A DNA stretch of 64,000 nt from Polytrichum commune (lineage: Eukaryota > Streptophyta > Polytrichopsida > Polytrichales > Polytrichaceae): NCBI GenBank assembly GCA_950295325.1, contig OX485805.1, positions 33,651,501 through 33,715,500 of the forward strand, in the 5' to 3' direction. The notes under the pieces are model-generated. The model had not been told where the DNA came from, did not search any database, and worked only from the letters and a program-made list of their open reading frames with translations. Shown here piece by piece: positions 4,416 through 57,803 of this stretch. Position numbers and translations under genes: made by a program. Positions within the stretch are counted from its first letter, which is position 1, and each line of letters begins with the position of its first letter.

Positions 4416-5142
4416 AGTGCCTTCACTCATCGGGCCGGGACTTGCAGCGGAGTCGGATGAGTCTAGCGGGTGCTAAACACTCCACTCCACTCCATTCCAC
4501 TCCGGACTCAAGCCACTAGATTAGCTTAGATCAGTTCTTGGAAGTAGGAGTTCTCCTCGCCCTTGTGGGGAGGGGGAGTCAAAGCACTCGGGGAGGGTAA
4601 AGACCCAAGACTGAAGGTAGATTAGATCATTTGTGGGGGAGGAGCAGTGAGTCATCGGAAGAGAGTATAGCCCTGGGGGGAGGAGTGGGGTAAAGAGCCA
4701 GGCTGCCTGACTACTCGAGATAGAGTAGATCACTTGTTGGGAGGAGGAATCAGAGAAGGAGCAAGGAAAGAGAATAAGGCCCCGCGGGGCAAAGACTGAA
4801 GAACGATTAGATCATTAGTTGTGCGAAGAAGGGGGTGATCATCAGAGAAGAGGAGGAGACTGAATAGCTTTGGCTTTCGAGAGCAAAGATATATTAGAGG
4901 ATGAGGCAGGAGCGGTGACCCGGGTATCACTGAACAGGATTTGGAGCAAGAGTTCGTTGGGTGATTTTGGTGTCTGGGAGAAGGAGGTCTGGAAGAATGT
5001 GGATGAAGGAAACGGAGGTGGGTTAGGATTGAGCTGCTGCATCGAGGGAGGATAGGTTAGGATAGGATAGGGTGGGGTGAGGAGGGAAGCCGCGATTGCG
5101 ATTGCGATTGCGAGGGAGGAGGGAAGGGGAGGGTATGTGTGC

Positions 5143-5988
5143 ATGGCTGGGGTGGAAGAAGTGGGAGCTCGGCCCTCGGGCGCCACTTCTGACGAAGAGC
5201 AGAGTGGGATCAGCGAGCGGGCACGGAAGCGAGGGAAGCAACCGGGAAGGCCCGGGAGCGGGGGGGCACCGGGCGAGGGCAGCCGCAAGCCGCGAGGGCG
5301 GCCACCGGGATCAAAGAACAAGCCGAAGCCGCCCATCATCATAACCCGCGAGAATGGCAATGCGATGCGCCCTCATGTGCTCGAGGTCGCGGGCGGGTGC
5401 GACGTGGGCGAGTCGGTCGCCTCGTTCGCGCGACGGCGGCAGAGGGGAGTGTGCGTGATGGGTGCGAGCGGGACGGTGTCCAACGTCACCCTGCGGCAGC
5501 CCACCACACCGGGTGCGACCGTCACGTTCCATGGCCGATTTGAGATCATCTCGCTCTCGGGCGCATTTCTGCCCCCTCCCGCACCCGCTCCCACTACGGG
5601 GTTGACCGTCTCCCTTGCGGGGACGGCTGGGCAAGTGCTGGGCGGGAGCGTGGTGGGGACATTGCTGGCCGCAGGGCCTGTGTTGGTGATTGCGGCCTCG
5701 TTCGTGGGCGCGACGTATGAGAGGTTGCCGCTGGATGATAATGATCAAGGGTTAACCATTGGGGGTGGGAGCTCGCAACCCACCCCGCTGGCTCTCCAGG
5801 CAGCCGAGCTTTACCCGCCTGCGTTGCAATCCCTATACACCCTCCCCATGCAGACCAACCTTGGAAACCAACAGCAGCAGCAGCAATTGGCGCAGGATGT
5901 GCTATTAAGCCAACATTGGGCGAGTGCTGGTGGAGGCAGCCACTCGCATGCTCACCCGCATAGTCATCAACGGCCGGGCCCCTACTAA
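5143..5988 (+). CDS. AHL: AT-hook motif nuclear-localized (AHL) protein, intronless clade A
   Basis: This encodes a 281-residue DNA-binding protein of the plant AHL family. These proteins bind AT-rich matrix-attachment DNA through an AT-hook, form trimers through the PPC (DUF296) domain and act in the nucleus as chromatin regulators. The type-I AT-hook is at residues 51-64 (core [10 protein letters not shown]). The PPC domain spans about 79-196, with LRQP at 117-120 and the diagnostic [11 protein letters not shown] at 130-140. These features, with the lack of introns, mark clade A. The N-terminus is acidic then basic. The C-terminus has a Gln run and a His-rich tail ([10 protein letters not shown]). 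I chose the ATG at 5143 as the first in-frame ATG; the frame upstream to 5077 has none. The PPC loop after GAFLPP is Pro/Ala-rich. No neighbouring gene suggests a pathway. The frame is intact and confidence is high. Confidence 0.94.
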
Positions 5989-25631: not shown

Positions 25632-27016
25632 GTTTAAGGATTTGATCTTGTTTACAGTTTTTGGTCGTTTTCCCCTCCGAGCATGAAGATCAAGTGGCAA
25701 GCCAGGGCGACTCCCTTGCCACCGCTAGCATTAGTGACTTCGTCCCTCCCAACATTGTAGATCAAATATGACATGCAGGGACAAACACTCTTTGGCTAGG
25801 TGAGCACATTGTCCCTCCTTTTTCCCGTTTGAATTTTTTGCCATACCTTTGCCCATTTTCATTTCTACTTTGCACGTGTATAGAAAACTATAGGGCCAAG
25901 AGTGTCCAAATTTTGCACATTATTGTGGCATGTTGTACCAACAAAGTTTATGCTAAGTGCATGCATCCCTTATGCCAATCCAAGAGCCACTTTGCTTGGG
26001 TGGAGGTATGAGTTCACTTGTGCAGCCTTAATTGAAAAAACCAAACAAACCTCGAAAGAATCAATGGTGATTGGATAGGAATATACAACCAAAGGGTCCT
26101 CCTTGCAACACACATGCGACACTTGTGAGGGAGGTGTTGCAACCTTTGTAGGTATATTGCCTAAGTTGAATGCCAAATACATCAATTTGAGAACACACGC
26201 ATGGAGGGCAAATGGGCATTTGGTCTAAAGATAAAGCCCTTGAACAACTAAATCAAAGACTAAGAGATTGGTCCGTAAAGTGGGAGGGTGACAAGTCTTG
26301 GTACCCAATTGATTTTTGTTTAGACAGTCGCTTCATTCCCAAAATATCCCAACATGGACAATGGTAATTATTGTGGGAGAGTACCTCTTGGGTCCAAGTG
26401 GAATGGCGATGTTTGTGCTAAACCTCAGAGGACCTGACATTAAGGTGCGTTTGGAAGCAAATTTTGTGTGCTTTGCAAATGGATCACGCCAATTGGTTGT
26501 CAAATGTGGGGAGCAACAAAAGAGGAGTTCTAGTGCACCAAGGTGGTAGAAATGTAATCGGAAACATGGATGATTATGTAGTTGGTGACATTGAATTGTG
26601 GGGCCAAGTCACACCACCCATGGGACAAGGAAGCACCCACATACCACTTGCCACAAACTGTTGCAATCAATTATAATTACAAGAAGCCATTGACACAAAT
26701 TTTGCAAGGATGGTTCATTAAATCCCCGGTTGCATCTCACATTTCCCAATGTAACATGCACCCTTCTAGATTATTTACTATGATAGGATCTAGATGTTCA
26801 ATCGAACACAAAGTTCCGACCTTTTGAAGGTGCAAGGTTCCTTTTGGGTAATTCTCTGGGTGACAATTGGTTGCCCAACTTTGTGGATTTGGGAATAGTA
26901 GAAATTTGCCCCATCCACTATCTAAAATACATCCCAACCTAAGCTCAAAAAGCACACCATACCCTAGCTCCAAACCCAACCTCCACTTGAAAAACAAATT
27001 ATGTCAAAACTACGAA

Positions 27017-28888
27017 ATGACCGTGACCTACCATCTTCACCACAAACCAAACCCTATCACAACCAAATGGAAACCAAGCACAACTACAAAACACGTACTC
27101 CAAGACAACTCCCATACACACCTAACAACTAAATACAACACCCACCAAAACCACAAACCATTCCCCAAAAACCACCCCTACCCAAAACTAAACATACATA
27201 TTAAACAAAAAGCCAACCCGAAAAACAAAGCAACCTCAACATACCAACCTCACCTCTCAACAAATGCCAAAGCACACCTACAAAACAAATGCTCCAAAAA
27301 TAAACCCTACCCTAGCTTCGAACACCATAACAAAATCAAACACCTATTAAGCCCTCATATAAAATACCAACCCCACCCAAAAAACACAATGGCCTCGGCC
27401 TACCGGCCTCGCCACACAAAGAATAACAAATACCACTTCATAAATAATTGGAAACCTAACTCAATAACAAGCCAAAAATCTACAAATAATACGAAACCAC
27501 ACTTCTCACCCATACAAATAGAAAAAACCATACCCGCTATACCTAACCTATTTTCCACAACCAAATGTACAATCACAATATATCTAAAAACAAACATGAA
27601 AAACCCCAACATAAGTCACTTCCACGGATACTACTTTACTAACAAACTAGAATTACTAAAATGCGGAGACATAGAATCCAACCCCGGACCAATGCCTAAC
27701 ATCCTACATACGCATCCTGCTACACACAAAAAGAGAGCCAAGATATACTTCATTCCAAACACTATCAAACTACAACCTAAATACCAACACATAGCAAATA
27801 CATTTGCTCCCATACTAAGGAATACGCACCCTCTACACCATCAAGCAATAATTACCCATCCACATCTATACCAATACATCCAAACACAAAGGCAATCACC
27901 ACCAACCCATTTGCTATATGCTATAGTCATCACCATCCACCCCTCAATAGACACATGCAATAGCATACTAACCCAACCCCAAAACTACCACTTTAACGAC
28001 ATATGGACCAACACACTAATTATTAGACTAGCTAACCTCACCAACCCCCCCAAAAGACACATACTGACACCGCACCCCTACACAATATTCATAGAAAACA
28101 ATCAACATATAATACTCCCCCAAAACTCAATACACACCAAAATATACGATTTCATCCACAACCAAGCCACCACACCCACACCAATCACCCTCAAGAAAGA
28201 ATTCCCCTTCCTTCCAAACCAGTTAATAACCGAAACACTTAGATGTTTAGAAAATATAAGCGAATATTCACACCCACCCCCACTCCTAGCCGCTCCCACA
28301 CCAATCACAAGAATAAACTCTAACACCGAGCACGAAACAAACATAATAACTTGGAATGCGTCATCGCTCAACACATCACTACCAAACTTACAAGACTTAA
28401 TCAACAACTCTCTAAATAACACAGCAATCATTCATATCCAAGAAACCAAACTCACTACAAACAAATCTACTAAATATATACAAAACTTATTCCCGGAATT
28501 CAAACTCACTTTCAACAACACACACGCACTCACGAGGTGCATCCAACAAAGAATGCCCTATACCCCCGGAAGAGGCGGCCTACTCACACTTATCCATCAC
28601 AAATATGCATTCCCGGGAAATGTCACCAAAATTCCCACACCAGCAAACATCTCCCCGTACCTACAAGTAATAAAAATAAACAACCATCCACTAACACCTT
28701 GGCTAATTATACACATGTATATGCCTACGCACCTAGAAGACATATGTCTTATCCCACACCTTAAGAACGAAATCACTAAACAAATCACTACACACCCCAA
28801 TCACATATACACACTGTGCGGTGACTTTAACAGAGATATTGCACTTAGAGGTAGACAAAATAACAACACTACTACCCCCCCACAATAA
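27017..28888 (+). pseudogene. LINE polyprotein part 1: basic N-terminus, 2A motif, APE endonuclease
   Basis: The frame is open from upstream; 27017 is its first ATG. Residues 1-210 are rich in Lys, His, Asn, Pro and Thr, like a nucleic-acid-binding N-terminus. A 2A-like motif ends at residue 225. From residue 442 (TWNASS) an APE-type endonuclease follows: Asn in TWN, Glu in IQETK, GRGG and GDFNRD. The domain continues after the TAA at 28886-28888 with SLIDGFY and SDHYPV, so the stop interrupts the nuclease and is a disabling mutation, not a natural end. APE domains nick target DNA to prime reverse transcription. The TAA could arise from CAA by one C-to-T change. Confidence 0.85.
27644..27691 (+). 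other. 2A-like ribosome-skipping motif
   Basis: The translated segment LELLKCGDIESNPGP matches the 2A consensus D-(V/I)-E-x-N-P-G-P exactly and is preceded by the usual Leu-rich stretch and G at -1. In known 2A peptides the ribosome fails to join the final Gly and Pro, releasing the upstream product. Here the separation would fall between the codons at 27686-27688 and 27689-27691, splitting the basic N-terminal protein from the enzyme part. 2A-like motifs are known in non-LTR elements of trypanosomes and several animals. Activity here is inferred from the motif only. Confidence 0.88.
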
Positions 28889-31800
28889 GAGGACTTCCAA
28901 TGGAAAATTTTTACCACATCTCTCGACTTAGAATATATCACTACCAACACCAGTATCTCCAGACAAGGTGGCTACAACTACACATCCACAAGCCTAATAG
29001 ATGGTTTCTACATTCACTCCCTTGACAACAACAAATTTACCTCCACTACAAACACAAACATGAATTTAAATTCAGATCACTACCCAGTCACATTACACAT
29101 CCCACACAACACACTTATAGCTAGACCTCCGCCCTCTACACACACCACACCAACTAGGATACTGAACCCGATACCACCGGAAAACCTAGAAAAATTTAAC
29201 ATAACATTTTTCGAAGAAAACTCCACCCAACTTAAAGAACTTACCACACTATTAGAAGACCACCAATACTTAACACCTGATCAATGGCAAAATGCCTGCA
29301 CATCATTGAAATATATTATAAACAAAATCTCAGAAACAATTGAAAAAACCTGCAAAGCAGACCCTCTACCCAACCTCACAAACAGAACATCACAACAAGG
29401 TGGTTTTTTACCACGCAAACTAGCTAGAGAATGGAAAAGACACCTCAACACATATCACCTCATCAGGAAAACCATTTACATTGTACAAAATGACCCAAGC
29501 TGGCAAGTACACCCCATCCTAAACGATATCCGAAACCACCAACACGTCAACATCCCGCACCCACCTACTACAACAACATCTCATGTCGAATGGATTGACA
29601 CCATAGCAACTATCGCAAAAACGGCAAATAAAGAAGCCAGAAAAATTACCACAAAATACACCAGAGACTGCATCCTAAAAGCCATATCAAAATACCGTCA
29701 AATGTATGAAAAAAATCCCAAGAAAATAAATCGGAAAGTCTTCAAGAACACTGAAACCTCACCTCTTGACTCCATCATTGATAGACAAAACAACATATTA
29801 ACCAACCCTGAAGACATTGCTTCAGAGATTTACGCACAACAATCCATCAGTAACCGCCCAACAGTCCCCACATGTCACTATCAAAATACACATCTAATTC
29901 ACTGTACATGTGGAGTAAGGCAATACCCTTGGCACGACTTAGATGGATACACAATCGACAGACGAGGAAAACCCCAAATCCCCTTGCACACATACTTTGA
30001 TCAAGAAACATACGACTTCTGTCTTAAAAACCTAAGTAATAATAAAGTCCCAGGCCCAGACAAAATCCCCAACTCAATTCTAAAAAATATGCCTCCACGC
30101 TTTCACAAAATATTGTTTCTATTCTTTAAACACTGCTATAAACAAAAACAAATCCCAGCATCATGGAAAACTAGTCTAACAGTTTCACTATATAAAAAAG
30201 GTAACCCATCACAACTAACAAATCACAGACCTATTGCACTAGCTAACACTATATATAAATTATACACAAGCACATTAACCTCTATCCTATCAGCATACGG
30301 AGAAAGATACCAAATACTACACGATAACCAAGAAGGGTTCAGAGCAGAAAGAAGCACCTCCAGACAAATCCAAATACTAATTGCAACGCTTGAAGACGCC
30401 AGACTCACAAACCAAGATATATACATTCTTTACATTGACTTCAAAAACGCCTTTGGCTCCATTGACCACGCCAGACTATTAGCCATAATGAAAGACCTGG
30501 GTTATCCCAATGACTCCATAAACCTCATAGGAAATATATACTCACAATCATCAACCATATTTACCGGCGAACACTTCGGAAAAACTCTACCAATCCACAT
30601 CCAAAGAGGTACAATACAAGGCGATACCCTTAGCCCCTATCTATTTATCATATTTTTGGAACCCCTACTTAGATGGCTGCAACAAGGAAATAATGGATAT
30701 ACCTTCGGTACGTCCAGAGTGAAAATCTCATCAGCAACATATGCAGACGATCTTGCAGCAATCGCCAACAAACTAGAAGCATTACAAACACAATTAAACA
30801 AACTAGACAAATTTTGTGAATGGGCAGGAATGGACCTAGGTATACCAAAATATGCAGTGACTGGATGTCTAAACAAATCTAAACTTAACCCCACAATCTT
30901 CAAGGCCCTAATCCAATCCACTAACATAAATTATAGAAACCAACCTATACCAGTCCTAAACCAACATGAACCCTATACATACCTAGGAATAAATCTTGCA
31001 CCATCACTCAAATGGAAAACACAAATAAATACCACCACAGCTAAAGTAATCAAACAATGTCAAGCCCTCGTAGCTTGCCCAGCTACTATGAAACAAAAAA
31101 TCAACATGGCAGACACAGTCATACGTGCTGGAATAGCTTATAGTTTTTATGCAGTACCATACTCCATACCAGCCATAAAAAAACTAGACAAAAAAATCAT
31201 CGCACTCCATAAAACAATATGTGGAATACCTAAATGCACATCTAATATTGCCACGCAACTCCCCCACAACCTATTTGGAATTGAAGCATTTTCATTACAA
31301 AATGCCTATCTAAGGTGCATTGGAGAACAATTACAAAATGCCCTCAATGACAAAGGCAGAATTGGGAGAATATATACCGGTCTAGTACAATTCATACTCG
31401 CCACACATGGAGGCTCTCAAGAAATCACTCGCATTAAATACCACCACTGTGTTAGATCACCCATCACTAGAACACTGTTCCTGCTAAAACATAAAGCCGG
31501 AGTCCATCTAACAAACACAATAAATAACTTTCTACTAACCCCATCATCACTTGAAACAGCATGGATGCAAGAAGCACAAATGCTACATGGCCTAAACCCC
31601 AACACCTCACTTAAACTACTACACAAATTACTTATACATAACATAACCACACTACACCAAATTACCTTGCCTAATGGTACCACTCTGATGAACAAGGACG
31701 AATTCAAAATCTACCACTCCACTCCTTCTAAACTTATCCAAAGCGCACTTAACATAGCTAATGAACTATTCTGCCACCTCCCCTGCAATCAATGCCCCCT

Positions 31801-32032
31801 ACCCTGCCAACAACACCACCCACCAAGATCCTTCAAAAACAAATATATAATAAGAAATCACAACATCCTACCTCACACACCGACCGCCCCCGTACACCCC
31901 CCTAACCCCCTAACCGCCTCATCCCCCATCTACCTCCTCCCCCCAACAACATGCTTAAAGACCCCCGACAATTCCCCATACACAAAATACTCGATCACAA
32001 ATAAAAACAATCTAACGACCACAATGGAATAA
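28889..32032 (+). pseudogene. LINE polyprotein part 2: end of APE domain and reverse transcriptase
   Basis: Same frame as part 1, after the TAA; the first ATG (29060) is inside the nuclease domain. SLIDGFY and SDHYPV (SDH at 29072-29080) complete the APE motifs. The RT domain runs from about 30030 (NNKVPGPDKIP) through ASWKTSLTVSLYKKG, HRPIAL, QEGFRAERST, DFKNAFGSID (catalytic Asp at 30437), GTIQGDTLSPYLF, YADD (30740-30751) and YLGINL. All RT catalytic motifs are intact. Downstream is a long thumb/connection region. The frame ends at 32030-32032, but coding continues in another frame, open from 32005, so a frameshift lies in 32005-32032. Loss or gain of one or two bases in the A-rich stretch there is the simplest cause. 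Confidence 0.88.
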
Positions 32033-32310
32033 AAAGAACAGTTACGTCATATATGTGTCAATGGACCACAACAAAGAACAACACATATAATAAATGGCGA
32101 ACCCAAAGGGACCTATACCCCTACTGTGAAGCCAACATATGCAACCACAACACAAACCTGCTTAACCAATATTACACAGAAAGACAACACAATCATTTTT
32201 CAAACATCATTAACGCTTACTTCACCACGGAACAACACCGAGACACAAGATACGTCACACCATCCACAATAATTCCGCTAGCACATATCTCTATTAGTGA
32301 ATGCAACCCA
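32005..32310 (+). pseudogene. LINE polyprotein part 3, left of the CACTA insertion
   Basis: A shifted frame continues the polyprotein (KRTVTSYMCQW, YTERQHNHFSNIINAY) up to the codon CCA at 32308-32310, where the CACTA element begins. The same frame and base phase resume after the duplicated CCA at 33574. No known domain is recognised in this linker of about 100 residues. Confidence 0.7.
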
Positions 32311-32548
32311 CACTACAAGAGTTTATATGACCTATTTAACAAAAATGTGACGAAATTCTGTTAATTTGGGTGTCATATAGGGCACCTTGATTCGGTCATA
32401 CAATTAACAAAGTTCTGTCAATTTTTTTGTCATCTGGGACAATTATACACGTAGGATTCCATTTACTCCGGCCCCCTTGCCATGTTGGATTCTCTTTACC
32501 TCGTCATTTACCCATGGTGATGTGGTTTAATGTCCAAGTTATACTAGT

Positions 32549-32757
32549 AAAAAAATCCTAAATTAGTAATCCACCCTCGCATTCGTGGCCTACTCACATA
32601 GGTCTAAGGGCGAAGGGCCACCTCACCTAACCTAGGCGAATGGACAAAGCCACCTACCTACCCTAGGCGAAGCCAAGGTTGAGGGGTCAAGGGGATCGAA
32701 CCTTGAACCTCTTGGCTATACTGTGAAGGCCTTAGCAACTAAGCCACCGCTCATTAC
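32549..32757 (-). mobile_element. tRNA-derived SINE candidate inside the CACTA element
   Basis: On the minus strand a Pol III-like A box (GGTGGCTTAGTTGCTAAGG) near 32747-32730 and a B box (GGTTCGATCCC, 32703-32693) have tRNA-like spacing. They are followed by an unrelated body and a T-run at about 32556-32550. The head resembles a tRNA with an AAGGCC anticodon-arm region but does not fold as a full tRNA. No target duplication was confirmed. Confidence 0.55.
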
Positions 32758-32989
32758 ATGATATAGGCCAAGTATGTAAGAGTTTTGTATGAAGAAGCCA
32801 TAAGACTTATAAACTTATGCATATATATATTTTAATTAGTGAAAGTAAAAACAAGCATAGAATTAATGTATTTACTATTTTTAATTAGTACGTATTGTAT
32901 TTGTATTAAAAACAATTTACAAAAATACTCCTAAACATTATTACTGTAATTATTGTAATTATTTTAACTACATTAATTACAATAATTTC

Positions 32990-33245
32990 AGTATTTTACT
33001 GAAAATAGCAAATTTCAGTATTTACCTAAATTAGAAAATTTCAATATTTACTTAAATTAGCAAATTTCAGTATTTACCTAAATTAGAAAATTTCAGTATT
33101 TACTTAAATTAGCAAATTTCAATATTTACTTAAATTAGCAAATTTCAGTATTTACTTAAATTGGTAATTTCAGTATTTACTTAAATTGGTAATTTCCCCA
33201 TTTACTTAAAGTGGTAATTTCAGTATTTACTTAAATTTGTAATTT
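32990..33245 (+). repeat. AT-rich minisatellite in the CACTA interior
   Basis: About nine imperfect copies of a unit near 28 bp with the core AATTTCAGTATTTACTTAAA. Copies differ by single bases and small deletions. Confidence 0.85.
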
Positions 33246-33573
33246 CAATATTTACATTAATTAATTAAATTAGTTATTACATTAATTATAGTAAATACAT
33301 TATTTATATTAATTACTTATACTAGTAATTACAATACTTAAAAACCTTTTGTAACACCTTTTGTAACACCTTTTGTTGTTAATAAATATGAGACACATGC
33401 TCAGGTGAAGGGAATAAGTTAAACGTGAAATATATAAATCTGATGACAGAAAATTGACACAAATTTTGAATAATGTCCGAATTGACAAAAACTCATAGCT
33501 TTGAGCTGATTTTGTCACTTCGGACATTTTAGTGTCACATTTTTGTCAATTATACACCCATTTCCTTGTAGTG

Positions 33574-33702
33574 CCAGAAAACGACATTGAAACAAATTCT
33601 GATATTATCCAAACACAATTCGATGTCGCCCACATATACGAAGACAATGGAAGGCATCTCATCACCATCCCGAAAGCTAGACTAACATGGCTATGGAAAT
33701 AA
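33574..33702 (+). pseudogene. LINE polyprotein part 3, right of the CACTA insertion
   Basis: Coding resumes in the interrupted frame (TQFDVAHIYEDNGRHLITIP) and reaches TAA at 33700-33702, after which the same frame stays open for 2 kb. The stop is therefore a point mutation, compatible with CAA to TAA. No domain assigned. Confidence 0.7.
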
Positions 33703-35703
33703 TACCAATTGGCAAAAAATACCACACATGGTCTAGAACCACCTACCCAATCATTCGAAACTGAAATTGTCTGGCTATACCAAAGATACAAATACCGTAT
33801 CCCAAAGAACGACCCACTCAAAAGAGCCCAATATACAATACCAACTCAAATACTGGATCTACTGATTACAACATTCAATATTACCCACTCATACTTTTCA
33901 TCCCCAGTTACATGTCCTACACAATTCACCCAATTCTACTCACCATTTTCACGAGACATAATATTTGGATCCTTAGGAAAAGTGTTTGACTATAAATGGC
34001 AAGGAATTGGATACGCACATCCGCACAACTCAATAGACCTACAACAAGCCATACACTGGGCACGCATGGCGGCCCAAAATGACCCTTACACAATCACTAT
34101 AATTATATCCCCAAACACTGACTGGTACCAAAACTCGAACCCACACACAGGCCCATTCCCAGACACACATGTCATTGCCCATTTTGTTGCTGACACAATC
34201 ATATACGAAGAACCAACAATACCCCCCGAACTCAATACTACAAGGAAAGAACCATCTACCATGCAAATATTCTGTATCCATCACCAAAATAATAACATAG
34301 GTACCTACGAACAAATGAAGCTAATACACGACACAGCAAATAACCTCCAAATATTACAAAGCCACACTAAAATTGCACCACCCACCCCTCCGAACACCAC
34401 CGTTAACCCTAGTAAAAAATGGGCTAAATCAAACTACCCAAACACACCCCTATACAATAATAACCCCACCCCACAACTCCCAAACTACCAAACCAACTTA
34501 CCACTAAAATTCCACCCCCAATTTAGCTACTACACAGATGGATCCTTTATAAAACCCAAAGAAATTGCCCCTGGAGTATGGAGAAGAGAAAGAGCTGGAT
34601 ACGGTATCTATAGCCCCAAAGGCTTCAATATCGCCAAAAGACTCCATGGGCATCAAAACATACTACGTGCAGAAATGATGGCTATACACAAAACACTAAG
34701 AATCATCAATACACAATTCCCTAATGAACCCGCATTTATATTCACAGACAGTCTAAACGTACTATATCTACTCAACACACAAATTAAACACCCCACTCTC
34801 CATAATAGTCACCCAGACCAAACCACACTCAACTCCATGGTAAAAATCCTCCAAGACCGTACACAGCCTATCACACTATACAAAGTCCGAGCACACGTCA
34901 ACATTGACGGTAATGAAAAAGCGGATAAACTAGCAAAAGACGGGTTAGAATTAGAACACAGAATCGCCATACACCCATACGAACATGCCCACGCCACCCC
35001 ATACTATTATCAAAAGGACGTCTGGGCCTCAATGGAAGAAGTCCCAGACAAAGGTCCAGTAAGATTCTTAGGAAAACAAATTAAAAAATATGACAGGGAA
35101 ACCAATATAGCAGTCATGGCCACACAAACCCCCAACACGTGTAAATGGACAGAAAATATAGACATTGACAAAGAACTGTCCAACGAATTCTGGACAAATC
35201 CCTTAATCACAGACAAACAAAAATCATGCCTTATTAAATTCCGTACAGGAACATACATGGGTAATGCTAGAAAACAAATGTTTTTCGGTCACCAGAGGTA
35301 CCCCTCTATCACGTGTCCCATATGCAATTCAAACGATCCAGACACTTGGCTACATGTACTACTGAAATGTAACCAACAACATATACACTCACTACGAATT
35401 AAAAGACATAACAAAGCAGTTGGAGAAATTAGGAAGCTCTTAATCTCGTCCGAAAAATCCCGATGTTTTACCCTCATGAATGCCGGTACCTTCAATAATA
35501 ATCCCCAAGAAAATACTGTCCCCAATTGGCTACTCCCCTGCACATGTAACACACAAAGATGTCATTGCAATGCAAGGTTTCGCCCTGACATACTATGCGT
35601 CAAAGGATTACCATATCAAAAGGACCCTCCCATCGACGTTGACCCTAACCTCACCATACAATTTATTGAATTCACATATTGTAACGACAGATTTTCCCCA
35701 TAA
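33703..35703 (+). pseudogene. LINE polyprotein part 4: methyltransferase-like region, RNase H, zinc knuckle, RLE
   Basis: Three modules in one open frame. (1) 33840-34400: SYFSSPVTC, QFYSPFSRDIIFGSLG, YKWQGIGYAHPH, AIHWARMAA and TITIIISPNTDWYQ follow the layout of phage-type adenine methyltransferases, but the catalytic NPPY-type position reads AHPH, so it is probably not an active enzyme of that type; this assignment is tentative. (2) 34519-34960: RNase H with YTDGS (Asp at 34537), RAEM, FTDS and GNEKADKLAK, i.e. all acidic residues. (3) 35314-35703: CPIC...H...C...RHN knuckle, then RPDIL (35581) and FIEFTYCND (35662), the pattern of restriction-like endonucleases of early-branching LINEs. 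The TAA at 35701 interrupts this last domain. Confidence 0.8.
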
Positions 35704-35988
35704 ACTATTGAAGCAAAAAACAACAAATACAAACCACTGATTGACAGTATCGCTTCCAGAGGATGGAAAATCGAACCACTTATTGTCCTCACAGTTGGGG
35801 CCCGAGCTACGGCCCACATCCCATCTATGAAAATACTAGAAGAAAATCTCAAAATACCCATGGTTACCATCAAAAACACCTTTAAAAACATTAATACTAT
35901 TGCAATACAATATGCCATGTCCATCCTCCTACATAAGAGGAGACTTGAAAACCACCAACCGCTCCCCCAAAACTTAGACCCTCCATAA
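35704..35988 (+). pseudogene. LINE polyprotein part 5: C-terminal end of RLE domain
   Basis: Same frame after the TAA at 35701-35703: NNKYKPLIDSI, GWKIEPLIVLTVGARA and IPSMKILEENL, the KY and GA(R/L) segments that normally follow RPD...E in this nuclease fold, then a basic helix and a TAA at 35986-35988. This is the likely natural end of the polyprotein. The internal stop removes the segment following the second acidic residue. Confidence 0.78.
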
Positions 35989-36059
35989 AACCCAAAAACT
36001 TGTATAATATCTTATATAATACCTAGTATCTACTTACAGCTCAGAATGAGGGACTGGTG

Positions 36060-36230
36060 CCGGTTGGTTGGTACAAATTTCCTACCTTTTATTCACTTGC
36101 GCACCAAGTCATGTGTTACATTTTAGACGATCATACGGACTCAACTGGAATCGAACCCGGAACGTCTTAACTCAAACATCCTCCCACAACCAACCGAGGA
36201 ATCATGACTTGGCGTTCACTCTCATTACAA
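36060..36230 (-). mobile_element. tRNA-derived SINE candidate
   Basis: On the minus strand, a B box (GGGTTCGATTCC, 36158-36147) is preceded 25 bases upstream by an A-box-like GGTTGGTTGTGGGAGG (36200-36185). The spacing is SINE/tRNA-like but the region lacks a full tRNA cloverleaf. Ends are approximate and no tail or target duplication was identified. It lies just past the LINE 3' end. Confidence 0.4.
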
Positions 36231-39200
36231 AAACACTAATTATCCTTAAAAGGCATGCACCTTCGTGGGCCATAATCGGCCCATGTTATTTGTTTCTCGG
36301 TTACTGTTTCTCGGTTACTATAGTGTCCATCCTCGAAAGAGGAGAGTAGTTTTGTCCCAGCTTCCCCATGTCCTGTGGGCATCGGGTTGTTGGCATTACG
36401 AACGAACACTCTATTCACGCCGGCCCCTAAAAGGGACCGGAGTTTCTATCTATCTATCTAGTTTGCAACTACAAAAACTACAGCCCCAACCACTACAGCC
36501 TAAAGTGCTACTCACAAGTATTCACAATGACAGTCCATGCTGTTGTGATGCCCCGGCAGGCAGGCATGCAACCGACCTTTCTCATACTAGAGGGAATGCG
36601 ATGCGAACGTGTGACCTAAATTCTGGCAATTAGGCGAAAAAGAGAGCCCTGAATCCAAGCTCGATTCACAATCTAATGAGCAAATTCGTTAACAGCGGAG
36701 CAACTAGACCTCGAACCCGAACCCTCTTCAGAAAAGCAAATAGCAAGTATGAATAACGAAGAAAGGAAGAGTCATCGCCGGTCCCACGGAAAACACCAAG
36801 AAACCACGAAATATACATCATCCCCAAGCACTCCTCACTCCTAACAGACAATGCGTAATCGGATGACCTCTGGCGAAGAGAATCGGCAAAGAAATCGGTT
36901 TCGGGAAGGTGAAGAGCGTGAGCGTCTGTCTGTCTGCACAGGCAGTGGACGGAGGAGATTAGGGGCGAGGGTTATATCGATCAGATCCGACAGTCGAGAA
37001 AGCACAGGTGACGTGGCCTCACCATAAGCCAGAAGCTGCTTTCATCGCCCATAGACTTCTTTTCGACAATAGATGGTCCAGTAGAATGACCGGATCTACC
37101 AAGGGGTAGAATAAGATATCCTTTAACACATGGATCAAATCCATGGCAATTAATCCTCTTAATTACAAAGTCACATATGGTGGCACAACCCACTAATGTC
37201 CCACTAATGTTCGACCAAAGACTTGTCAATTTGTTTGTGATATACTGACATAAGTCATAGGTGCTAAGTCTGAAGTCCTCGACACATATGAAATACAATA
37301 TAGTGTGGGGCAGAAAGTTGGTGCAACCCTAGTTTGAACAACAAAAGCTACAAAAGCAAGGTCCAAGAACAAGTCCTCAATGGGAGAGGGTTTACCACAA
37401 GGCTCTCTAGTGGAGGTCATTACAGAGGAAGTGCACGGTCTTCGCACATGATGTTGCATTGATTTTGTGAAGCTTGTGGAAACAAGTTCATGTACAAGGT
37501 TGCATATGACATGCATGTCCACAAGAGGGTTGCACGCTTTAGATTGTAATGCCTCACTCCTTGTATGTGGCTTGTGGTAGCTCCATGCAAGAAGGGAACT
37601 ACTTGAGATAGCGGATATGAGTCACTTCACTCCACAATGTGAGAACTGCACGGGAATGACTGCCTTTCCAACACATTGGGCGACATGCTAAAGGTAGCAA
37701 CAAAGTAGACAATTGAGATCCGATATGATAGGGTAGATTTGCATTCAATGTTGTAGTTCACTTATGTTGCATGTGTACATAGGAAGTTGATGTGCGGTGC
37801 AGTCTTGGTAGGGTGAGAAACAATAGCACTAGTCCTATGAGAAGTGTAGATGCTTTACTTCCCATAACATGGTTTTGTCCATGCATCCCCATTTTGCGTA
37901 GCATGAGATGTGTTGATAGTTTTCGATGAAGAACCTTGGAGGATCATTGCAAATAGTGGTAAACACATGGATGTAATTTTGTGGACTTGTTTGAGGGCCA
38001 AATTGAATATGGGCAAAGCTTATGACAACATTGACTTTATTTCAAATGGTTGTGGTTATTAATAGTGGATTTAAAGTCTCATTCCTTGTGAGATGATTGC
38101 GCACGGAAGGTGAAATAGATCTATATGCATGCATTTTGTGAGGTTTTCATAGATCAATGAAGGGAGAAACCGAGTCCTCCATTGACTCCAACTATAGCCA
38201 TTTCAGTTGAAGTCCCCTTGTAATTACTAGTGGACAAGGCCTAAACCTTGACATCAACCAACAAACATTGCTTGTATTGTTTGTGACATCAACTAACCAT
38301 CCAAACATGTTGGCATTTTGACTTGTAACCCATAACAATATGTCTATTCATGTATCCCAAGCCAAAATCCACGTGACCGATGTGTATGTGACAACCATGT
38401 GGATTGTCCTTTGTGCCTTAGAAAACCATGTTCAATAGTAGAACTCATAAAGGGTTACTGTAGAAAAATACCATGGGCCACTCCCATAATAACTATGGAT
38501 TTACAACATTTGATTTTTGTGCATCCAAGTTTTGTTTCACATGGTGCGGTGCACCACGGAAGAGTGCCAAAAAATAACCGTGAAGGAAATACTTTTATGG
38601 TCCATGTTTGCCACCATCGTATCTAGCATGGCTTCCATGTACATAACCGTATCAAAAACTTAGAAGCTCCTTTAGGGGTTGATTGGTATCTACATTTGAA
38701 TGGTGTATGGCAAGGGTCATAGTTAGCCTTTAAATATGTTACCAAGAGAGGTCATTTGCAACCATTTATTTATTTATATTGAGGTCATGAATGGGAGGGT
38801 TAGCTCAAAATTTGAGACACAATGTGAATCCCCTATAAGAGAGGTCTTCTTTGAAATACTAAAACTTTGACTTCTTTGAGAAAATTCAATATATTATGAT
38901 TGTCATCTATGAATTTACAAGTCTCAAGTGTTCCTTCTTTATTAATTTTCTCAAAAAATAACAAGAAGGGCTTTCTTATGGCTCCCAACTATGATCTGAA
39001 TTGTGTTCCAAGAACTTCCATAGCTTACAAATTTGTGATAAATTTGACAAAACATGAGCTCTCAATTACATTATGGCATCACCTTATGAGATTTGAATCC
39101 AAAATCTTATAAATTCAATTCACAAAGCTCGTGAAGATTTCTATAGCATTATAACTACCTGGATATATTTAAATAGTAGTCATCTACAACTTTGTTAAAA

Positions 39201-46559: not shown

Positions 46560-47160
46560 ATGGGTAGCAGTAAAAGCAAATCATTCCGTTGATGCTAGAT
46601 GATCCATGGGAGGGCACTCCTTAAGAAAGACCAAGTACGACTTAAAGGTTTTTGATGATATGCTAAGAGGCCGATGGTAGAGGCAGTGCGTCGTTGATAA
46701 AGACTTATGGAGACCAAGGTTACCTCTTAATTTTGGGCAAAGAGTTGCCAAATGATGTTGGTTGCATAGCGCCAAATGTGTTGAGCCAGTGGGCAGTTGA
46801 AAAATATGTACTTCATTGATTCCACCGACAATGGGTTGCAAAGGGGACAACTCTTGTCAATCTCCACCGAAATTCGTCCAAGCCATTTGTTTACCGCCAT
46901 TGCCTTGTGAATAACTAACCAAAGGAAAACCGTTTCCTTCTGCATCTTGTGCTTGTGCCAAATGTTGTTCCAACTTGGAGAGGTGGGAGGAGGAATTTCA
47001 ATCTGCCATTTTTCACGGATGAACTTCTTGAGAGTCTCTTCAGATATGGAGCAGTAATCCATATCCGACTAAGCTTGACCGAGTATGCCAAGAATGGAGT
47101 GACCTCATGCCATCATCAAAGAAGAATTGATCGGAATTTCCAAAGAATAGGTTGAATTGA
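46560..47160 (-). pseudogene. LINE C-terminal fragment with zf-RVT domain
   Basis: Reading from 47160 down, a frame with one stop leads into SISEETLKKFIREKWQIEIP, then WNNIWHKHKMQKETVFLWLV, HKAMAVNKWLGR and CPLCNPLSVESMKYIFFNCP: the reverse-transcriptase zinc-binding (zf-RVT) domain with its CxxC...C spacing. After a TAA the same frame continues to TWSFLRSALPWII, stop, HQRNDL, the usual tail of these elements. The two in-frame stops show it is dead. It is a separate insertion from the LINE at 40-43 kb, on the other strand. Confidence 0.8.
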
Positions 47161-56934: not shown

Positions 56935-57738
56935 TTATTTAGGTACTATTTCCATTGGCTTGAGTTCTACGGGTTGCAACTCGGGTCCATTGAACTTGTT
57001 GGATTGCATAACTGCCATCTTGACTGCATCGTTATGCGGTATAGGTTGTTGCCCAAATCTATGTCTGACCACAAAATCGCGTGTGTCAGACATTGGTGAG
57101 TAGTACAATGATTCAAAGAAAGGGAGGAGAACCTTCATCATGTCTGCGTCATGGACCCGATTATTTGTGAACGAATTCGGAAATATACCACACTCGTCCG
57201 GATTGCAAACAGATTTGTAAGGGCAATCATCTACTAGAATGGTGTTTGACTCTGCAGCTGTAATCCTCCCAGAATCGAAAGATATAGGTGGCCACCAAAA
57301 CTTCCTGACCAAACTCTTCAAAAACAATGGAGCTGTTGGCTTCAAAGGGTTCGTCACGACATTGCCCCACATGTCCTTGAATGTGGTGCAATCCTCTTGG
57401 CCAAGTACTAAAGCTGGTTTTGGCAGCCCAGCAAATAGATACTCCACCACAAGGTCGACAGTTGATTTTTTCATGGATGACCATATGCAAAGATGAAACA
57501 TTGTGGACATCCGGTACCAAAACACCTTGTATCCCAGTCTAGGGAGGACAACCTTGGGCCCTACCAAGGCAGGAAGTTTGTCCGCCGCACGATCGTGCAT
57601 TACCCAAGTGGGGACAGTCCCCATATTGCTGTGACGGGGGGTACAGTGGCAAAATATGCCGTTTAAATCGAACACCACAATGAACCTCTTGGCGGGCAAT
57701 GCAGCAGGCGCCTGCCGACAAGAATCCAATGTGAGCTT
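56935..57738 (-). CDS. minus-strand gene exon H: FCP1/NIF-type HAD phosphatase-like domain
   Basis: After an acceptor at 57739-57741 (AAATTTCAG) the exon encodes a HAD-superfamily domain of the FCP1/SCP (NLI-interacting factor) type, which dephosphorylates Ser/Thr, notably in the RNA polymerase II tail. Motif I is FIVVFDLNGIFC: the nucleophile Asp is present but the second Asp of DxDx(T/V) is Asn. Motif II is LCIWSSMKKST. The C-terminal motif is TILVDDCPYKSVCNPD with both Asp. The Asn change suggests reduced or no activity, but similar DLNG variants may be normal in plant relatives. The exon ends MEIVPK-TAA. The last 20 codons and the stop are duplicated just downstream (LELQPLELAPLEV...TAA). 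Domain call confident, gene borders not. Confidence 0.75.
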   Translation of the reverse strand, partial: KLTLDSCRQAPAALPAKRFIVVFDLNGIFCHCTPRHSNMGTVPTWVMHDRAADKLPALVGPKVVLPRLGYKVFWYRMSTMFHLCIWSSMKKSTVDLVVEYLFAGLPKPALVLGQEDCTTFKDMWGNVVTNPLKPTAPLFLKSLVRKFWWPPISFDSGRITAAESNTILVDDCPYKSVCNPDECGIFPNSFTNNRVHDADMMKVLLPFFESLYYSPMSDTRDFVVRHRFGQQPIPHNDAVKMAVMQSNKFNGPELQPVELKPMEIVPK

Positions 57739-57803
57739 CTGAAATTTGCTAAAATGAACTAAACAAAGAATGACCTTGCAAATCTAGGCATGATAGAACA
57801 GAC

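Follow-up and report, generated by a model that had tools for sequence, protein, structure and literature searches.

The DNA analysed here (the window) is a 64-kb stretch of the 408-Mb Polytrichum commune assembly (G000:C3:33651501-33715500) and holds one copy of a long interspersed nuclear element (LINE) which carries an apurinic/apyrimidinic endonuclease (APE), a reverse transcriptase (RT), an RNase H and a putative restriction-like endonuclease (RLE). We consider it probable that this copy belongs to a Dualen/RandI-like LINE with two endonucleases which has recently been active in moss. The window copy (W) was compared with other loci and copies from the same genome, which carry L or F numbers. 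It consists of about 8.3 kb of element sequence and a 1.26-kb insertion, and can be aligned to its relatives from about position 26,908, where it is truncated. Its region (26.9-36.5 kb, forward strand) is rich in A and C, with a GC skew reaching down to -0.48 in 2-kb steps. The following features were identified:

26908-36460, forward strand: inactive, 5′-truncated LINE copy, 97.9-99.0% identical to L008, L009 and L010, with a 3′ end common to 12 other copies
27662-27691, forward strand: 2A-like motif CGDIESNPGP, read in frame
28349-29090, forward strand: APE endonuclease domain with TWN, QETK, GDFN, SLIDG and SDH motifs, broken by the stop at 28886-28888
30200-30997, forward strand: RT core (RVT_1, 1.6e-28), YADD at 30740-30751, R2 chains best in PDB
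31880-31950, forward strand: frame-shifting length change, placed near 31,900 by pairwise alignment with L001; the open frame switches at 32005-32032
32311-33573, strand not assigned: CACTA-like DNA transposon insertion with ends CACTACAAG and CTTGTAGTG and a 3-bp repeat CCA; relatives are without it
33736-34014, forward strand: best-matched part of a PCIF1-like domain (PF12237, 3.5e-11), with a stop at 33700-33702
34525-34947, forward strand: RNase H domain (PF00075, 2.7e-13)
35314-35988, forward strand: C-terminal CCHC / RIKRHN / RPD / E / KxxKY module, a putative R2-type RLE with motif order as in R2 chains; stop at 35701-35703
36319-36444, forward strand: 3′ untranslated region RNA structure, a consensus fold with covariation from 11 sequences
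36445-36460, forward strand: 3′ terminal (TCTA)n tail, from the sequence and comparison with other copies

All of the motifs listed in a preliminary description of this locus were found in the window sequence: TWN (at 28349), QETK, GDFNRD, SLIDGF, SDH and YADD, and, within the C-terminal module, the CPIC knuckle (CPICNS at 35314), KRHN, RPD (35578) and FIEF (35665). The RT and RNase H which it named were also recovered by Pfam, with the values given above. Its picture of one frame-linked polyprotein has to be given up for this copy, which contains the three in-frame stops, the frame-shifting length change and the CACTA-like insertion. Nor is the copy as complete as was thought, being 5′-truncated, with unbroken frames found only elsewhere in the genome; and the element does not end at 36050, its true 3′ end lying at about 36,460 by comparison with other copies. 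Most of the APE falls within the open frame at 26864-28885, which had no Pfam match. The insertion is read as CACTA-like, as its CACTACAAG ends and CCA repeat are typical of such transposons, and within it, at about 32986-33265, lies an array of 26-bp tandem repeats.

Searched at the protein level, the genome gave at least 44 strong matches to this LINE (44 scored among 3,211 first-look candidates). The set retrieved for comparison comprised 12 copies, each of 10 kb, six extensions upstream and five copies of greater divergence. Unbroken frames for the second open reading frame (ORF2) were found in L001 (2,924 aa), L019 (2,917 aa), L002 (2,663 aa) and L003-L005 (2,625 aa). They encode, in order, a low-complexity N-terminus, a 2A-like site, APE, RT, a cysteine/histidine knuckle, the PCIF1-like domain, RNase H and the RLE-like module, and the same order was repeated in other fetched copies. 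A SAYRPRHK-like motif recurs within the low-complexity N-terminus, for example at about 27390-27430 in the window and in F008/L020. The copies fall into two subfamilies, with nucleotide identities of 99.5-99.7% between L001, L002, L006 and L007 and of 99.0-99.5% between L003-L005, and because copies within a subfamily are this similar (99.0-99.7%) the activity is taken to be recent. The window copy itself carries a foreign insertion, and it could be imagined that an APE LINE had come to lie nested beside an RLE element, forming a composite by chance. This we regard as next to impossible, and as refuted for the family, because L001 and L019, at 57% protein identity, each have every domain in a single unbroken frame, barring an assembly error in both; other copies keep the same order. 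The proposal of a dual-endonuclease LINE in a land plant is supported in part: in the intact copies APE, an R2-like RLE module and RNase H share one frame, and the window copy is truncated and broken.

Both predicted nucleases keep their motifs across the family. Eighteen loci, one of them the window copy, were scanned for patterns in three frames. Of the five APE patterns, each was present in 17 loci, and RHN, (R/K)PD, EFTY and E...KxxKY were found in all 18, as was YADD/YVDD in the RT, where the motif-A pattern was found in 15. For the APE, L019 scored 25.5 bits with Exo_endo_phos (PF03372), for which the cut-off is 24.5, and PF14529 was above its cut-off within L019, L020, L022 and L023; no Pfam APE family was reached in L001 or the window copy. 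An APE profile found ExoIII chains in PDB at 1.5e-3, through the N-terminal motif. For the RLE, the R2 chains and the moss module share the order C, H, C, RIKRHN, (R/K)PD, E/D, KxxKY and GAR, and RIKRHN is identical between R2Tg and the window copy. RNase H (PF00075) was matched at 3.6e-12 in L001 and 1.5e-14 in L019.

Ratios of non-synonymous to synonymous substitution (dN/dS, Nei-Gojobori) between L001 and L003, both of which are unbroken, were 0.069 for APE, 0.068 for RT, 0.105 for the PCIF1-like domain, 0.073 for the RNase H region and 0.095 for RLE, versus 0.49 for the N-terminus before the 2A site. The comparisons of L003 with L019 (APE 0.129, RT 0.061, RLE 0.090) and of L001 with L019 (APE 0.110, RLE 0.104) are less reliable, with dS near or at saturation. 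Between subfamilies, selection on the two nucleases is strongly purifying (dN/dS 0.07-0.13).

Upstream of ORF2 lies a further frame, ORF1; as open frames, the two have about 20 nt in common in F003, and 77 nt in F001. The ORF1 proteins of three lineages (L013/L001, L014/L003 and L018) are 30-40% identical and have a conserved LTQIP core; a Pfam search of four ORF1-region frames found no family. An NPGP site was found in frame in 16 of the 18 loci, as DIExNPGP in 11, DIKPNPGP in four and DIHPNPGP in one. Passages of PMC12846837 give the 2A core motif as (D/G/C/N)(V/I)ExNPGP, with rare working variants; the 11 DIExNPGP sites match this motif and therefore should work as 2A sequences, while the other five are uncertain. 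In L020 and L023 the 2A site is preceded by another 2A-like segment, which is degenerate (HLGP, KPGP) and has copied flanks, as if the module had been duplicated.

The PCIF1-like domain scored above the PF12237 cut-off in the window copy, L001 and L019. When the genome was searched with PF12237, all 150 scored places, among 697 candidates, were above cut-off, and the best of these was a LINE-like piece (L026, 55.6 bits). No host gene scoring above L026 was seen among the scored places, where exon splitting could conceal one. The PDB route matched PCIF1 chains weakly (E 0.12), in an alignment that takes in the NPPF site as well as SP(L/V)..C and FGS.G. The NPPF residues are catalytic in PCIF1. 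In the LINE this position reads HPHN, HPPN, HPHT, HPHS or HPYN; the HP motif was seen in 20 of 20 loci picked from the 150 listed, in 8 of 8 alignment rows and in all 17 of the 18 scanned loci in which the pattern was found. The window has HPHN at about 34018-34029, just past the best-matched part of the domain, with GYAHP at 34009. Methylation of the PCIF1 type is unlikely, because these catalytic residues are lost. The domain is nonetheless constrained despite the change at NPPF, as its dN/dS shows. It may act where the RNA is capped, and is a candidate new module for handling RNA 5′ ends.

The 3′ end was found to be common to all 13 LINE copies compared, with tails of (CTAT)n or (CTT)n. Target-site duplications (TSDs) of 10-14 bp flank eight of the 13: F001 (14 bp), F002 (11 bp), F003 (12 bp), F006 (13 bp), F007 (12 bp), F008 (13 bp), F009 (13 bp) and F010 (10 bp). 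The span between TSDs was 14.6 kb in F001, 12.5 kb in F003, 13.4 kb in F008 and 14.1 kb in F009. Among random pairs, 24 of 5,000 had a common 9-mer; the TSD search itself covered longer stretches than this null, because of which the 10-bp TSD of F010 is the weakest of the LINE set. Together with 12 insertions of short copies or of the short interspersed nuclear element (SINE) described below, 20 sites were available, with TSDs of 8-14 bp; the weak ones among the non-LINE sites are L062 and L068, the latter a GA-rich repeat. A fixed insertion target was not supported, as the 20 sites carry 20 different TSD sequences. The base before the TSD was G in 13 of the 20 (binomial 2.6e-5 at p = 0.21 and 1.3e-3 at p = 0.30), a preference which is only suggestive because extension of the TSD leftwards through a tail free of G favours G at that place. 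In 18 of 20 sites the first base of the TSD is T, a position shared with the tail, and pairing to the tail could account for this.

A 22-base pattern for the 3′ end, with one free position, had 856 matches in the genome and none in the control. We sampled 20 places, approximately every fifth of those listed and all on C1, and found five long LINE copies, nine copies with a SINE body, five short copies and one without a match. In the nine, a shared non-LINE body is joined to the last 147-153 bp of the LINE. This SINE is young and about 380 bp long, its last 150 bp or so matching the LINE 3′ end, and was located at about nt 1045-1436 (element orientation) in L053, L055, L057, L059, L060, L065, L067 and L071. 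It has A- and B-box-like sequences; ARAGORN, run on seven of the SINE loci, detected no tRNA. TSDs of 11-14 bp, placed at the start of the body, were found in seven of the nine, L062 being truncated and L065 having none. The SINE-LINE junction had 979 genome matches at ≤ 2 mismatches and none in the control. The SINE serves as an independent marker for the kind of 3′ end which the LINE machinery accepts.

An RNA fold with covariation is common to the 3′ ends of the LINE and the tRNA-like SINE. It was derived for the last 125-132 nt from 11 rows, being those in which anchors were found, plus L020 entered by hand and minus L021. In this fold 94.1% of cells were paired, and eight pairs were changed on both sides, compared with a shuffled mean of 3.5 (0 of 500 shuffles as high), in a covariation test made on the same 11 rows from which the fold was derived, several of them closely related. 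The fold was also far above slid versions of itself. The number of further pair types (20, compared with 21.2 when shuffled, 477 of 500 as high) counts against the structure.

The results which weigh against reading the element as a recently active LINE of the Dualen/RandI kind with two endonucleases should be set beside those above. Five of the 13 LINE copies are without an established TSD: none was found for F011 or, when searched, for the window copy, and F004, F005 and F012 are unsettled. Five of the 16 2A-like sites diverge from DIExNPGP. By hhalign, the RLE module scored 25.9 with R2 RLE segments taken from PDB chains (pairwise P 0.004; 0 of 200 column shuffles as high, top 24.6), but at a probability of 8.5-8.7% and from a 30-column core around H..C..RIKRHN. 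The half after RHN, with PD, E and K, scored 17.5 alone, from 14 columns near GAR (a score reached by 1 of 100 shuffles), and the D/E of R2 was not aligned to the E of the module. A HMMER search of PDB with the RLE profile, up to E 5, found no R2 chain, and single-sequence AlphaFold of the window segment did not confirm the fold, with a mean predicted local distance difference test score of 34.7 and a predicted template modelling score of 0.24. By sequence comparison, the knuckle half of the RLE is well supported, and the case for the catalytic half, which is that its motif order is kept in 18 of 18 loci, is weak; our overall confidence is lowered because of the latter.

These same results bear on the idea that one of the nucleases is catalytically silent and has been retained as a platform for binding DNA or RNA while the other does all of the cutting. 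The weak profile match of the PD, E and K half to R2 and its longer PD-to-E spacing would fit such a loss, for which the neighbouring PCIF1-like domain, constrained without its catalytic motif, offers a precedent. However, the RLE has kept its PD, E and KxxKY in every one of the 18 loci, the APE motifs persist in 17 of them, and the dN/dS of both nucleases is as low as that of the RT, and we think it unlikely that either is silent.

Placement of the RT also leaves room for doubt. Its profile matched R2 chains best in PDB (1.2e-31), followed by 8c8j, human L1 ORF2p, at 1.4e-18; by this comparison the RT is nearest to R2 among solved structures. One scan of viral contigs with the profile found no relative. 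In a tree of 14 rows, rooted on a nuclear maturase and without Dualen, RTE, CR1 or I sequences, the moss LINE copies formed their own clade (support 100/100), which was joined to R2 at 74/70, a value which is not significant and was accompanied by long-branch warnings. Likeness to Dualen was judged by published descriptions. An ordinary plant L1-type LINE, whose cysteine/histidine knuckle at the C-terminus would be similar to an RLE in appearance alone, would be consistent with a clade containing all four L1 rows, which was not rejected (p-AU, the approximately unbiased test, 0.161), and passages of PMC4640811 indicate that RNase H can occur in plant L1. A clade with the moss L1 was rejected, however (p-AU 0.017), the R2 match exceeds the L1 match by far, and RIKRHN, PD, E, KxxKY and GAR follow the R2 order, so that we find an L1 identity very improbable. 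The preliminary description had named an RT lying inside L1 or RTE as contrary to its reading; for L1 the outcome is divided in this way, and RTE was not among the rows.

For the Dualen/RandI-like LINE we propose the following mechanism. Element RNA would be translated into a putatively functional ORF1 protein and, from the overlapping frame, into the ORF2 polyprotein, from which the 2A-like site would release an APE-RT-PCIF1-like-RNase H-RLE enzyme, leaving behind the low-complexity N-terminus. Recognition by this enzyme would involve both the conserved fold of the 3′ RNA and its short-repeat tail. One nuclease, either of the two, would place a nick in the first strand of the target, with no more than a weak preference; the RT would extend the freed 3′ end, perhaps aided by pairing of 1-3 nt with the tail; the other nuclease would cut the second strand 10-14 bp away, giving rise to the TSD; and RNase H would remove the RNA. 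The tRNA-like SINE with the same 3′ end would be moved in trans. More speculatively, the nucleases could divide the priming nick and the second-strand cut between them, so that a single polyprotein would amount to a complete two-step target cutter, while the PCIF1-derived domain, having lost methylation, keeps the capped RNA terminus at the RT and so favours insertions of 12-15 kb. We are doubtful of this combined proposal; if it is true, and if algal Dualen elements are without a PCIF1-like domain, this domain would represent a new kind of LINE module.

Elsewhere in the window, likely host genes encode a PCC/AT-hook-type protein (5071-5985, forward strand) and a NIF-type phosphatase (56938-57783, reverse strand). 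The genome's best zf-RVT match, a plant L1 fragment, lies at 46772-46987 on the reverse strand (G000:C3:33698272-33698487). What appears to be the same unrelated repeat follows both the window LINE (about 36830-36910) and L020, in opposite orientations. In the rest of the assembly, plastid sequences make a moss the most likely host. The plastid contig carries rbcL, trnR-CCG and an accD-like frame in this order, a place from which trnR-CCG is missing in flowering plants. PsaB scored 1,701-1,705 bits against 8htu, 6l35 and 7ksq, compared with 1,616 against 5l8r and 1,539 against the algal 6ijj group; according to PMC7884438, 6L35 comes from Physcomitrella, 5L8R from pea and 6IJO from Chlamydomonas. 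About 406 of the 408 Mb fall in seven contigs, which is suggestive of n = 7, the number in Polytrichaceae.

Compared with known systems, the element shares features with several. Plant L1 elements of the same genome (L046-L048) likewise have APE, RT, TSDs and possibly RNase H, whereas the C-terminus of the moss LINE is RLE-like and is not the zf-RVT end that was used to find those L1s. With the R2 group it shares the nearest RT in PDB and the CCHC/RIKRHN/PD/KxxKY C-terminus; it differs in having APE, RNase H, two ORFs and TSDs at many unrelated sites. R2 targets one fixed site in rDNA and has RLE as its only nuclease; the presence of APE and of 20 different TSDs speaks against membership in the R2 group. 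APE LINEs carrying 2A, reportedly described by Odon in 2013, resemble it in the D-I-E-x-N-P-G-P upstream of the APE, and differ from it in its plant host, two nucleases and long N-terminal region ahead of the 2A. The PCIF1/CAPAM cap methyltransferase (PDB 6irv, 6irx) resembles the moss domain in its PF12237 match, SP(L/V)..C and FGS.G, while the latter has HP(H/P/Y)(N/T/S) in place of NPPF and is embedded in a LINE polyprotein. Neither a PCIF1-like domain in a LINE nor Dualen in moss or another land plant was reported among the top matches in open-licence PMC text. Relative to this searchable literature, a land-plant LINE with two predicted nucleases, its PCIF1-like domain with HP(H/P)(N/T) for NPPF, its 2A-like site, its size and its SINE partner appear to be new.

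The closest likeness is to Dualen/RandI, non-LTR retrotransposons said to have been described from green algae by Kojima and Fujiwara in 2005. Algal Dualen elements carry a cysteine protease, treated here as accessory; Pfam found no peptidase in the ORF2 of either L001 or L019, nor in the four frames searched from the ORF1 region, where a diverged one could escape. Passages of PMC3636483 and PMC4640811 describe Dualen/RandI as combining APE with a PD-(D/E)xK nuclease, and the moss LINE resembles it in having APE, RT and RNase H, together with a putative nuclease of that type. A short-repeat 3′ tail and tail-sharing SINEs are a further likeness, as PMC3747384, in the part available, places RandI under green algae only and describes algal SINEs with RandI tails. 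The algal host range given by the preliminary description agrees with the mention of core-Reinhardtinia algae in PMC8226300, but is too narrow, as LINE/Dualen is also annotated in cryptophytes in the relevant part of PMC12747079. The moss LINE differs in its host and in copies of up to 14.6 kb, and has the PCIF1-like domain and 2A-like site. We describe the element as resembling a target-primed reverse transcription element of the Dualen/RandI kind with two nucleases, its membership in the Dualen clade being provisional. The position of such LINEs has been taken, in a passage of PMC4640811, as evidence that APE replaced RLE in LINE evolution. The examples described so far are mainly algal, and the moss family adds a land-plant setting for this question; being young and abundant, with unbroken copies and clear TSDs, it would make the role of each nuclease testable in a plant.

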